A stretch of DNA of 56,550 nucleotides from NCBI GenBank assembly GCA_021799715.1, contig JAJYZY010000001.1, positions 1 to 56,550 of the forward strand, in the 5' to 3' direction. The DNA comes from Planctomycetota bacterium. GTDB lineage: Bacteria > Planctomycetota > Phycisphaerae > WQYP01. Positions 4,744 to 15,345 of the stretch are shown one piece after another. The notes below the pieces were generated by a model, which worked only from the letters and a program-made list of their open reading frames with translations, was not told the DNA's origin and made no database searches. How positions within the stretch are numbered: position 1 is the stretch's first letter; each line of letters opens with the position of its first letter. Made by a program: the position numbers and the translations under genes.

Positions 4744-6186
4744 ATGTTTCAGGGTTATGAGATCGATGGGCTTTTCGATGAAATGTTTGAAAAGCCCGAG
4801 CGGCCAAGGCCGCACTATTCCGCACTGTATTCCCGGCTCCATGACTTGGGAATGTCGGCGTTGCAGCACCGCAGCCGCATGGCGGATGTGTGTTTCCGTA
4901 ATCAGGGTATTACCTTTACGGTCTACAAAGATACACTGGGTGTTGAAAAGATATTCCCATTTGATTTGATCCCTCGCATTATTCCCAACCGCGAATGGAC
5001 CCATCTGGAACGTGGTTTGATCCAGCGCATTACCGCGTTAAATCTATTCTGCCACGATATTTACCATCAGCAGGCCATTTTGCGGGAAAAGATCATCGAT
5101 GCGGAATTGATCTATGGTGCCAAGATGTTCCGGCGCGAAATGATCGGTGTGAATATCCCGCGGGATATTTATATCACCATCTGCGGCACGGATCTGATTC
5201 GCGATGCGCAGGGCAATTATCTGGTGTTGGAGGATAATTGCCGCACGCCCAGCGGCGTAAGTTATGTGCTGGAAAACCGGGCCGTCATGAAGCGGGTTTT
5301 TCCCGCGCTGTTTCAAGCCGCCCGCGTGCGGCCCATTGAAGATTATCCGCATAATCTGCTGCGTTGCCTCAAGCATCTTGCCCCGCCGGAAGTTGAAGAA
5401 CCATGTATTGTGGTGCTCACGCCGGGCGTATTTAATTCGGCATACTTTGAACACAGCTTTCTGGCCCGGCAAATGGGGGTGGAGCTTGTGGAAGGCCGCG
5501 ACCTGCTGGTGGAAGATAACTACATTTACATGCGCACCACGGCGGGTCTGCGACGGGTGGATGTCATTTATCGTCGGGTGGATGATGATTTTCTTGATCC
5601 GCTGTGTTTCCGCCCGGATTCCATGCTGGGAGTGGCGGGGCTGATGAACGTCTACCGCCTGGGGCATGTCGCACTGGCGAATTCCGTGGGAACCGGAGTG
5701 GCGGATGACAAAGCCATCTATCCGTTTGTGCCGGATATGATTCGCTTTTATCTCGCGGAAGAACCCATCCTGCAAAGTGTGCCAACATACATTTGCAGCC
5801 GTCCCGCTGATCGGCAATATGTTCTGGAGCATCTGGATCAACTGGTCGTCAAAGCCACCAATGAAGCCGGGGGTTACGGTATGTTGATGGGCCATCAGGC
5901 GGCGGCGGCGGAACGGGACGAATTTGCGTGTAAAATTCGTGATAATCCAAGAAACTTCATCGCTCAGCCGGTGGTGCAGCTAAGCCAGCAGCCCAGTCTG
6001 GTTGATGGAGCATTGCGGGGCCGCCGCATTGATCTTCGACCCTATATTCTCTTTGGCGAGAAAATTACGGTCATGCCCGGCGGCCTGACGCGCGTGGCGC
6101 TGCGGGAAGGATCGCTGGTGGTCAACAGTTCACAGGGGGGGGGCAGCAAAGATACGTGGGTACTTGAACCGGAGAATAAGCGATGA
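4744..6186 (+). CDS. Circularly permuted ATP-grasp protein, type 2
   Basis: 480 aa. The family (formerly DUF404/DUF407) is a circularly permuted ATP-grasp ligase predicted to form amide bonds between amino acids or on protein tails. Recognisable segments are FRNQGITFTVY, LEDNCRTPSGVSYVLENR, the phosphate-binding region around VLTPGVFNSAYFEH, DVIYRRVDDDFLDP, KATNEAGGYGM and the family's ending VNSSQGGGSKDTWVLEP. ATG 4744 is preferred because AAAAAGGA precedes it; the frame is open upstream to a TTG without a binding site. The stop overlaps the next gene by ATGA, so the two are translationally coupled. It is paralogous to the N-terminal half of the fused protein at 11864. Confidence 0.9.
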   Translation: MFQGYEIDGLFDEMFEKPERPRPHYSALYSRLHDLGMSALQHRSRMADVCFRNQGITFTVYKDTLGVEKIFPFDLIPRIIPNREWTHLERGLIQRITALNLFCHDIYHQQAILREKIIDAELIYGAKMFRREMIGVNIPRDIYITICGTDLIRDAQGNYLVLEDNCRTPSGVSYVLENRAVMKRVFPALFQAARVRPIEDYPHNLLRCLKHLAPPEVEEPCIVVLTPGVFNSAYFEHSFLARQMGVELVEGRDLLVEDNYIYMRTTAGLRRVDVIYRRVDDDFLDPLCFRPDSMLGVAGLMNVYRLGHVALANSVGTGVADDKAIYPFVPDMIRFYLAEEPILQSVPTYICSRPADRQYVLEHLDQLVVKATNEAGGYGMLMGHQAAAAERDEFACKIRDNPRNFIAQPVVQLSQQPSLVDGALRGRRIDLRPYILFGEKITVMPGGLTRVALREGSLVVNSSQGGGSKDTWVLEPENKR

Positions 6187-7259
6187 CACAAGCCGCTATA
6201 TTAACAACGTCGCAGGCCGCAGCACCGCGCCTGCCAAGGGCGCTTCTGGCCCGCGTAGCGGATGCCAGTTACTGGATGAGCCGTTACATAGAGCGCGCCG
6301 AACACATTGCGCGCATCCTGATGGTCAGCGTGGATTCATTAACCGGCGCGGGGGAACTGGAAAAGGAACTCTCGCATCAGGCGGTGGTGGATGTGTTGAA
6401 GATAACCTGGCAGGAACACATGCTTCCGGAACTGGTCAAGCCCGATTACACGCCCATGCAGGCGCTGATGGCGGTGGCCAAATATATGGCCTTGGATCCT
6501 TCCAACCCCATCAGCCTGATGAGTTGCCTGACCAAAGCGCGTGAAAACGCCCGGTCCATTCGCGAAAGTATTTCCAATGAAATGTGGGAGCAGCTTAATA
6601 CCTTGTACTGGTCGCTGAAGGCGGATGACGCCATGGCCCGCTTCGACGATTCACCGCAGGAATTTTTCCGGCAAATGATGACCGGTTCGCTTTTGCTGCA
6701 GGGACTTGCGGACCAAACCATTGATCATGGGCAGGTCTGGCTGTTTATTCAGCTATCCAAATATCTTGAACGTGCGGATATGACATGCCGGATTCTACTG
6801 GCAAAATTTCAGACGCTGCATCAATTGGATTCCCTGGCGTCCCTGGATCCCGCGGGCCGCATTATCCACTGGATGGCCGTTCTACGGGCGTGTTGTTCGA
6901 TTGAAGCATATCGCAGAGCCAATGTTGGGGAAATTGAGCCGGCCCTGGTGGCGGGATTCATCCTATTTGAGCCTACGTTTCCGCGCAGCGTTCATTTCTG
7001 TATCCATCATGCCCTGGAATCGGTGGACCGGATTCGCTCGGTTCTGGTAGCGGACGCCGGGCGCGATGCCCAGCGGCGGCTGGGGCGCTTGTTTGCGGAA
7101 TTGCAATATTCGCGCGCTGCGCCAACCCAGGACAAAGGGCTGCTGGCCTTTCTGGAACAAATACGCAATTCCGCCGCCGATGCGTCCATTGCCGTGCAGG
7201 AGCAATGGCTGATGCGATCCGGTGAGCAGGCATCGCGCATGGAATTGGTTATGGGATAA
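6183..7259 (+). CDS. Alpha-E domain protein (DUF403)
   Basis: 358 aa, nearly all alpha-helical. It starts with the family signature LARVADASYWMSRYIERAEHIARI and ends in the helical segment around EQWLMRSGEQ. Alpha-E proteins are found almost only beside circularly permuted ATP-grasp and transglutaminase genes; their biochemical role is unknown and a scaffold or substrate-binding role has been proposed. The ATGA overlap with the upstream ligase points to a complex made in fixed ratio. The same domain is fused to an ATP-grasp in the protein at 11864. Confidence 0.9.
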   Translation: MTQAAILTTSQAAAPRLPRALLARVADASYWMSRYIERAEHIARILMVSVDSLTGAGELEKELSHQAVVDVLKITWQEHMLPELVKPDYTPMQALMAVAKYMALDPSNPISLMSCLTKARENARSIRESISNEMWEQLNTLYWSLKADDAMARFDDSPQEFFRQMMTGSLLLQGLADQTIDHGQVWLFIQLSKYLERADMTCRILLAKFQTLHQLDSLASLDPAGRIIHWMAVLRACCSIEAYRRANVGEIEPALVAGFILFEPTFPRSVHFCIHHALESVDRIRSVLVADAGRDAQRRLGRLFAELQYSRAAPTQDKGLLAFLEQIRNSAADASIAVQEQWLMRSGEQASRMELVMG

Positions 7260-7341
7260 ACGTTTTCCGTGGACCCATGCGGATGTCAGGAAGATGTTTA
7301 CACCGGCAGTGGTATCGGTGCCGTGGTTTGGAGTTAAGTGA

Positions 7342-14434: not shown

Positions 14435-14472
14435 CGCTGTGGAATGAAAATAATGGCTATTGGAGTCTGTTG

Positions 14473-15345
14473 ATGCCGGTTTATAAAATTAAACATATCA
14501 CGCGCTATCGCTACGAGCAGCCGGTGACGATCTGCCATCATATTGCGCATCTATTGCCGCGGGAGGCTCCCCGGCATCTTTGGAGTTTTGCAGATTTGGA
14601 AATTTCCCCATCTGCGGTGCGCACGGATCGTTTGGATTATTTCGGCAATCGGCAGACATTCTTCAGTATTCAGGAGCCGCATCGCGAATTGCTGGTGACC
14701 TCCCGCAGTGAAGTTGATATTCTGCCGCCATCAACCGGAATGCTGTTTTCCAATCAGCCCTGGGAACAGGCGCGGGATGGCTTATGGAATATTCCGTCGC
14801 CGGATTTTGGCGGCGTCATACAGTTTACGTTTGAGTCCACTAAAATTGCGCAGCCGCCGGAGGCGGCGCGGTATGCCGCCGAGTCTTTTACACCCGGTCG
14901 CCCGGTGATGGAAGCTCTGGCGGACCTCATGGCACGGATTCACCAAGACTTTGAATTTGACTCTTCCGCTACCACGGTCGGTACCAGCGTGGCGGAAGTG
15001 CTTCGCCATCGCAAGGGCGTATGCCAGGATTTTGCCCATCTGGGAATCGCATGTCTGCGGTCAATGGGATTCGCCGCGCGCTATATTTCCGGATATTTAC
15101 TTACATTGCCGCCGCCTGGAAAGCCACGCATGGTCGGTACTGATGCCTCGCATGCCTGGCTTGCCGTTTACGTGCCTGAGCTGGGCTGGCTGGAATTCGA
15201 TCCAACCAATAATATGGTCCCGGCGGAACGCCATATCACCATCGCGCATGGACGTGATTTTTCCGATGTTTCACCCCTGCGCGGCGTGATACTCGGCGGT
15301 GGTAAACATGCGGTGCATGTTTCCGTTGATGTGGCCGCCGCTTGA
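14473..15345 (+). CDS. Transglutaminase-like cysteine protein
   Basis: 290 aa, with a beta-rich N-terminal domain (IKHITRYRYEQPVTICHHIAHLLP) and a transglutaminase core whose Cys (KGVCQDFAHLG), His (ASHAWLAVYVP) and Asp (EFDPTNNM) are intact. It is the last of three transglutaminase-like domains in the block and closest in layout to the one at 7342, but lacks the glutamine tail. A TTG immediately precedes the ATG in frame; ATG is taken as start. It ends ten bases before the start of the SRAP gene. Confidence 0.92.
   Translation: MPVYKIKHITRYRYEQPVTICHHIAHLLPREAPRHLWSFADLEISPSAVRTDRLDYFGNRQTFFSIQEPHRELLVTSRSEVDILPPSTGMLFSNQPWEQARDGLWNIPSPDFGGVIQFTFESTKIAQPPEAARYAAESFTPGRPVMEALADLMARIHQDFEFDSSATTVGTSVAEVLRHRKGVCQDFAHLGIACLRSMGFAARYISGYLLTLPPPGKPRMVGTDASHAWLAVYVPELGWLEFDPTNNMVPAERHITIAHGRDFSDVSPLRGVILGGGKHAVHVSVDVAAA

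Follow-up and report, generated by a model that had tools for sequence, protein, structure and literature searches.

A planctomycete locus with two ancient ATP-grasp/Alpha-E/transglutaminase modules and a possible two-step amide-ligation pathway

An operon that combines ATP-grasp, Alpha-E and transglutaminase proteins with the proteasome-like Anbu has been described for Pseudomonas and Yersinia (PMC5666114, PMC6376114, both citing Iyer 2009), and a protein joining a transglutaminase to a carboxylate-amine ligase was described in Mycobacterium tuberculosis as the Rv2566 type (PMC2588565). Genes of the Pseudomonas putida version of the Anbu operon are induced on nitrogen limitation (PMC8050072, PMC7801951), and the genes I35_5080-5083 of Burkholderia cenocepacia encode DUF404/DUF407, DUF403, transglutaminase-like and large transglutaminase-like proteins (PMC5491218). 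Although its outline has been described, this widespread bacterial operon, predicted to form and cleave peptide-like amide bonds, is uncharacterised and poorly understood. Here, we analyze a stretch of 56,550 nucleotides from a Planctomycetota bacterium (assembly GCA_021799715.1, contig JAJYZY010000001.1, positions 1 to 56,550; hereafter, the window), in which six genes of these families, W1 to W6, follow one another on the plus strand between positions 4744 and 15345. The locus had originally been proposed as a candidate for an undescribed biochemical system, a view which was abandoned since the families and their neighbourhood had already been published in 2008-2009 (PMC2588565; PMC5666114, PMC6376114).

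Set A consists of W1 (4744-6186), a type-A circularly permuted (CP) ATP-grasp protein with intact key residues (CP_ATPgrasp_2, PF14403, E 5e-166); W2 (6183-7259), a stand-alone Alpha-E protein (PF04168, E 2e-75); and W3 (7342-8316), a separate transglutaminase-like cysteine enzyme with N and core domains (PF01841/PF08379, E 3e-20). Set B comprises W4 (8416-11814), a transglutaminase (approximately residues 1-270) fused to DUF2126 (1315 bits); W5 (11864-14434), a fusion of a degenerate type-B CP-ATP-grasp (CP_ATPgrasp_2, E 2e-150) with Alpha-E (E 4e-69); and W6 (14473-15345), another transglutaminase-like cysteine enzyme (PF01841/PF08379, E 5e-20). The genes overlap or are separated by less than 100 bases. 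The start of W1 is taken as the ATG at 4744, the scanned frame opening at the TTG at 4669, and the scanned frames of W5 and W6 begin at 11843 and 14470, respectively. The Pfam scan, which covered nine window proteins, confirmed the domain content of the original prediction (two CP-ATP-grasp, two Alpha-E, three transglutaminase and one DUF2126, all in a single direction). The Cys-His-Asp triads of all three window transglutaminases proved intact, as had been claimed, both in the sequence and in the alignments, and the reported lack of Anbu held as well: a single Anbu query found no match among the window frames of at least 60 amino acids.

Set A thus has three families in common with the Anbu operon, from which the window differs by the absence of Anbu and the presence of set B. 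W4 has the same architecture as the Rv2566 type, with which the glutamine-synthetase/glutamate-cysteine-ligase-like (GS/GCS/Dop-like) fold of its DUF2126 part agrees; in the window, it follows a type-A ATP-grasp module in the same direction. The B. cenocepacia genes are read as the W1-W4 order, and six other Burkholderia loci hold the W1-W6 set as in the window. Whereas the B. cenocepacia cluster is NtrC- and sigma-54-dependent (PMC5491218), a sigma-54 site could not be recognised in the window, and unlike six Burkholderia loci in which the separate transglutaminase has a serine, the window retains the catalytic cysteine.

The two ATP-grasp proteins differ sharply in their ATP-site residues. 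The closest solved structure to W1 is 3n6x (Mfla_0391, a putative glutathionylspermidine synthase; E 1e-170), which it resembles and with which it shares the EDN, GGYGM, DLRP and SSQGGG motifs. From the structures of glutathione and glutathionylspermidine synthetases, we take E and N in the EDN motif to be Mg ligands and the glycine loop to cover ATP. Six lid/metal-site positions were scored (E188, N190, G401, G402, G404 and D455 in W1 numbering, 4669 frame). All six were intact in 55 of 55 type-A rows, W1 of the window included, whereas type B retained at most two of the six in 74 of 74 rows; short rows were excluded from this alignment (3/57 for A and 2/75 for B). Another alignment, which took in 94 fused proteins, namely the window protein, 49 other database proteins and 44 locus rows overlapping with the 74-row set, had none of the six residues in 58 proteins, one in 31 and two in 5. 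W5 therefore passes the domain and fold test for an ATP-grasp but fails the key-residue test. The type-B consensus has conserved motifs of its own (DRTQAPSG and SMQRGGGSKD), which argues that type B is under constraint rather than decaying. Judged from these residues, we infer that W5 would perform no standard ATP-grasp chemistry. In the open-access literature, a search for ATP-grasp pseudoenzymes matched only a tubulin-ligase-like protein in the texts retrieved. One type-A gene, at locus L091 of another planctomycete genome (G066), has a single in-frame TAG in its ATP-grasp frame.

Quick sample trees (67, 62 and 63 rows, with long-branch warnings) were built for the ATP-grasp, Alpha-E and transglutaminase domains, respectively. 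The ATP-grasp tree was split by one branch into A (35 rows) and B (32 rows) with a Shimodaira-Hasegawa-like approximate likelihood ratio (SH-aLRT) support of 100, and both clades included Planctomycetota, Verrucomicrobiota and Pseudomonadota. Likewise, the Alpha-E domains of the two modules, AE_A and AE_B (31 rows each), stood on opposite sides of one branch (SH-aLRT 100). Among the transglutaminases, TG_B and TG_C each formed one group, and TG_A was not clean (2 changes). Because the split of the ATP-grasp and Alpha-E trees runs across several phyla, redundancy through recent local duplication was rejected. Moreover, since key residues of the ATP site are missing from the W5-type ATP-grasp of all relatives examined, the second set is probably not redundant, and the idea of partly redundant sets gave way to that of an ancient separate clade. 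The phylogenies which the original prediction had called for separated A and B as described; instead of a single ATP-grasp clade with one characterised product, two clades were obtained, and no characterised product was found in the literature searched.

The DUF2126 domain of W4 carries many residues that are invariant across 66 rows, and together with its GS/GCS/Dop-like fold this makes it more likely that DUF2126, rather than W5, is the intact ligase of set B. DUF2126 by name had no match in the open-access literature searched, subscription papers being outside the search. Both Alpha-E domains were far above the PF04168 cut-off of 20.8 bits (255 bits for W2 and 233.9 for the C-terminus of W5), and a sequence search of the PDB with W2 gave no match at E up to 1. 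The catalytic triad was intact in 92 of 92 TG_B rows; in TG_C, Cys was found in 68/71, His in 68/71 and Asp in 69/71 rows, with W6 of the window intact. In TG_A, the catalytic position was occupied by Cys in 11 and by Ser in 6 of 17 rows. The six serine rows, with the motif GTSRDH, come from six Burkholderia loci (L067, L041, L044, L058, L038 and L053), which suggests that, in this lineage, the separate transglutaminase may be degenerate as well. In M. tuberculosis, Rv2569c is presumably a transglutaminase-fold gene of the B-type cluster. Rv2569c has been reported as a serine protease (PMC11081392).

Searching with W4 gave at least 589 confirmed relatives, of which the best 80 loci were used, with type A or B assigned by best BLAST match. 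The closest relative among the matches listed, a metagenome-assembled genome of Planctomycetota (locus L001), had an identical order of seven genes, including the SRAP gene downstream of W6, with 95% identity to W1 and 83% to the W4 protein. A W5-type gene lay directly 3' of the DUF2126 gene in 69 of the 80 loci and was not seen within the available stretch in the other 11. Type A was present in 43 loci, 34 of which have it co-directional and 9 on the opposite strand. The full set (type A, Alpha-E, separate transglutaminase, transglutaminase-DUF2126, W5 type and W6 type) occurred in nine loci, i.e., L001, six Burkholderia loci, L056 and L061; in one of the nine, L058, the stop-to-stop frames place the transglutaminase ahead of Alpha-E, and a tenth such locus, L041, stops after DUF2126. 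The run of type A, Alpha-E, transglutaminase-DUF2126 and W5 type lacking the separate transglutaminase was found in 18/80 loci, including Planctomycetota, Verrucomicrobiota and Pseudomonadota. As the same runs recur across three phyla, the arrangement is widespread, and the proposed two-module layout is indeed conserved in planctomycete relatives and two further phyla.

The dependence of set B on set A was followed in three genome samples, whose phyla were inferred via L001, L032 and L004 and in which types A and B were assigned by frame length. Among 200 Pseudomonadota genomes, CP-ATP-grasp was above the family cut-off in 113 and DUF2126 was present in 63; all 63 had a CP-ATP-grasp match (59 of them at least two) and a frame of type-A length (407-616 amino acids). 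DUF2126 was found in 17 of 149 Planctomycetota genomes, 16 of which had CP-ATP-grasp. Frames of type-B length occurred in 15 of the 149, with a clear type A in 14 and only contig-edge pieces in the remaining one (G143), and type A was present without B in eight genomes. In Verrucomicrobiota, the family was found in 26 of 115 genomes, with type A in all 26, type B in 20 (a contig-edge partial in G407 included) and B alone in none. The genomes of ten chosen loci all had frames of both lengths, and one genome of the Pseudomonadota sample (G307, best E 1.2e-113) was left untyped. Overall, set B gives the impression of having been added to set A. To our knowledge, as far as the open-access literature goes, neither the residue loss in the B clade nor the nesting of B in A is in print.

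Anbu showed no such simple relation to the two sets. Four planctomycete genomes combined Anbu with set A lacking B, so that the overlap of Anbu with B was 0/4 Anbu genomes among the 23 with ATP-grasp (p 0.0017), and the genome of L001, for which completeness is not given, had no match to the Anbu query or to PF00227. In Pseudomonadota, Anbu and DUF2126 occurred together in 34 genomes (p 0.25; 112 of the 113 genomes counted, with four weak-hit genomes omitted, one of which, G338 with E 1.2e-7, was presumably above the cut-off). B was also present in 2 of 4 Verrucomicrobiota Anbu genomes, Anbu lay beside both sets at three loci (L029, L034 and L057), and one Anbu genome (G252) had no CP-ATP-grasp match. 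The idea of Anbu and set B as strict alternatives was dropped, as the planctomycete pattern failed in the other two phyla.

Sites resembling sigma-54 promoters, scored when at least 11 of 12 positions matched the consensus, were found 5' of 18/55 type-A genes and 23/83 W4-type (DUF2126-bearing) genes, compared with 1/74 W5-type and 0/6 stand-alone TG_B genes; as controls, 27 of 1794 other frames of at least 250 amino acids (stop-to-stop, some antisense) and 51 of 3960 random stretches were positive. A first count had given 17/55 for type A and 23/88 for all TG_B-labelled genes, and the difference between 17 and 18 probably comes from the choice between two frames in a locus. By phylum, the type-A positives were 13/30 in Pseudomonadota, 1/8 in Verrucomicrobiota and 4/17 at planctomycete loci, and the W4-type positives 20/55 in Pseudomonadota and 3/15 in Verrucomicrobiota; these rows are related loci, mostly of Pseudomonadota, and hence not independent. 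Because such sites precede both type-A and W4-type genes, either module can come with a sigma-54-like promoter of its own. The four planctomycete type-A genes with a site, none of them in the window, belong to genomes G131, G066, G151 and G147, and sigma-54 control may therefore exist in Planctomycetota. Published data point to nitrogen in Pseudomonadota. In P. putida, nitrogen limitation raised PP_2686-2688 11- to 15-fold, with a value of 1.12 for the Anbu gene PP_2685 (first column of the table in PMC7801951), and both PP_2685 and PP_2688 were raised on nitrate compared to ammonium (PMC8050072). A Bradyrhizobium CP_ATPgrasp gene is preceded by a listed site (PMC13207237). In the searched text of the Caulobacter NtrC paper PMC10274813, the term transglutaminase matched only a different gene, hvyA.

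Taken together, we favour a two-step amide-ligation pathway in which two ancient modules contribute one active ATP-grasp and one GS-fold ligase, and assign it a probability of roughly 0.4. The two-step pathway of the original prediction stays plausible, given that, in the three-phylum samples, B without A was seen rarely or not at all and that set A does occur without B. Amide ligation of the ATP-grasp type is itself a family-based prediction, as had been stated, with no product characterised in the literature searched. The model builds on the computed domains and gene order, the residue loss of W5, the fold similarity of DUF2126, the nesting of B in A and the sigma-54-like sites of relatives. 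W1, fully equipped and similar to glutathione synthetase and glutathionylspermidine synthetase, would activate a carboxylate as an acyl phosphate and couple it with the amine of a small molecule, a peptide or a peptide tail, with the Alpha-E protein W2 as its probable partner. Indeed, the Yersinia Anbu-operon ATP-grasp releases phosphate from ATP (PMC6376114). Module B (W4, W5 and W6) may then act on the product of module A, DUF2126 forming a second amide bond, perhaps of gamma-glutamyl type, and W5 serving as a non-catalytic binding or scaffold subunit. The three transglutaminase-fold cysteine enzymes would cut or transfer amide bonds of the product, and the whole system is probably cytosolic. 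The proteobacterial system responds to nitrogen starvation, and the system of this organism might also have a role in nitrogen metabolism. Somewhat more tentatively, the fused ATP-grasp/Alpha-E may be a conserved pseudo-enzyme that serves DUF2126 across several phyla, with the two sets forming one starvation-linked pathway to an unknown amide-linked metabolite or tag via two consecutive ligations. If W5-type proteins are not ligases, DUF2126 is the second ligase and B depends on A, a problem that dates from 2009 or earlier comes down to a few directly testable points, namely the enzyme that turns over ATP and the metabolite that depends on each gene.

Several observations weigh against the two-step model. 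Type-B proteins keep three pocket residues, G196 (74/74), R457 (74/74) and K395 (60/74), so that W5 might still bind nucleotide or carry out an altered chemistry. One planctomycete genome (G075) has DUF2126, as a fragment match, without any CP-ATP-grasp; two others (G054 and G144) have DUF2126 without a type-B frame, and G097 has type B without DUF2126. Moreover, M. tuberculosis presumably holds the B-type genes and perhaps lacks type A, and if it does, B can work alone. The window has no good sigma-54 site (at best 8/12 positions before W1 and 9/12 before W4), which leaves nitrogen control in this organism unsupported, and planctomycete W4-type genes had a sigma-54-like site in 0/12 cases. 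From the literature, PMC5666114 reports Anbu-operon expression as unchanged under various conditions save nitrogen limitation, PMC6376114 reports no specific partner in Anbu pull-downs, and the open-access literature searched yielded neither an activity for DUF2126 or Alpha-E nor a substrate or product.

The conserved motifs that W5-type proteins keep for themselves would also fit two independent pathways that share a neighbourhood, A and B each having its own substrate and conjugate and W5 being active via a different ATP-binding loop. The opposite strand of type A in 9 of the 43 loci holding it and the possibility of a separate sigma-54-like site for each module point the same way; nevertheless, we consider this explanation unlikely, as B rarely if ever occurs without A in the samples and, of E188, N190, the glycine lid and D455, most are missing from W5-type proteins. 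A pupylation-like tagging or degradation of proteins, among the readings of earlier comparative-genomics work, would have a peptide tag attached by A and B and then removed or processed by transglutaminases and Anbu. It appears still less probable: PMC2588565 reports no small conserved Pup-like open reading frame (ORF) near the family, a Pup-like recurrent neighbour was not recognised among clustered frames of at least 110 amino acids, and the Anbu query had no match in the window or in the genome of L001. What speaks for a nitrogen-scavenging amidohydrolase system, whose transglutaminases would deamidate or hydrolyse proteins or peptides with the ligases only recycling or conditioning peptides, is the induction on nitrogen limitation together with urea and nitrate genes (PMC5491218, PMC8050072, PMC7801951), a metagenomic link to urea domains (PMC3597751) and the sigma-54-like sites of relatives. 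However, such a system would have no need for two ATP-dependent ligase folds, and the window has no sigma-54 site of its own; we regard this as the least probable of the explanations, with a rather small chance of being correct.

Neither PADLOC, searched for defence families, nor NCBIfam gave a match for W1-W6. Within the 650 bases 5' of W1, the sole ORF of at least 100 amino acids is an antisense one that extends into W1. A sigma-70 scan of positions 4000-16400 showed no excess (7 sites compared with 9.8 in shuffles), and an Rfam scan of the window returned tRNA only, with no riboswitch or other RNA. Among the neighbours of the related loci (clusters of frames of at least 110 amino acids), no recurring pathway partner was recognised; widely shared clusters were mostly read as antisense shadows, a status assigned to the large ones by eye from few coordinates, or as clade-specific genes (ComEC-like, HI0933-like and PAS kinase). 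The gene next after W6 encodes an SOS response-associated peptidase (SRAP, 15356-16039), with the likely start MCGRF at approximately 15356, beyond the W6 stop; it also adjoins the set in L001, and a functional link is not evident. Upstream of the operon (2283-4094) lie genes for an ArgD-like aminotransferase and a McsA-like UVR-motif protein, preceded by a tRNA-Arg (tcg) on the minus strand (936-1009). Near the end of the window, at 50419-55239, Pfam identified genes for a Cas3-type HD helicase and Csd1, which we read as a type I-C-like CRISPR-Cas locus.

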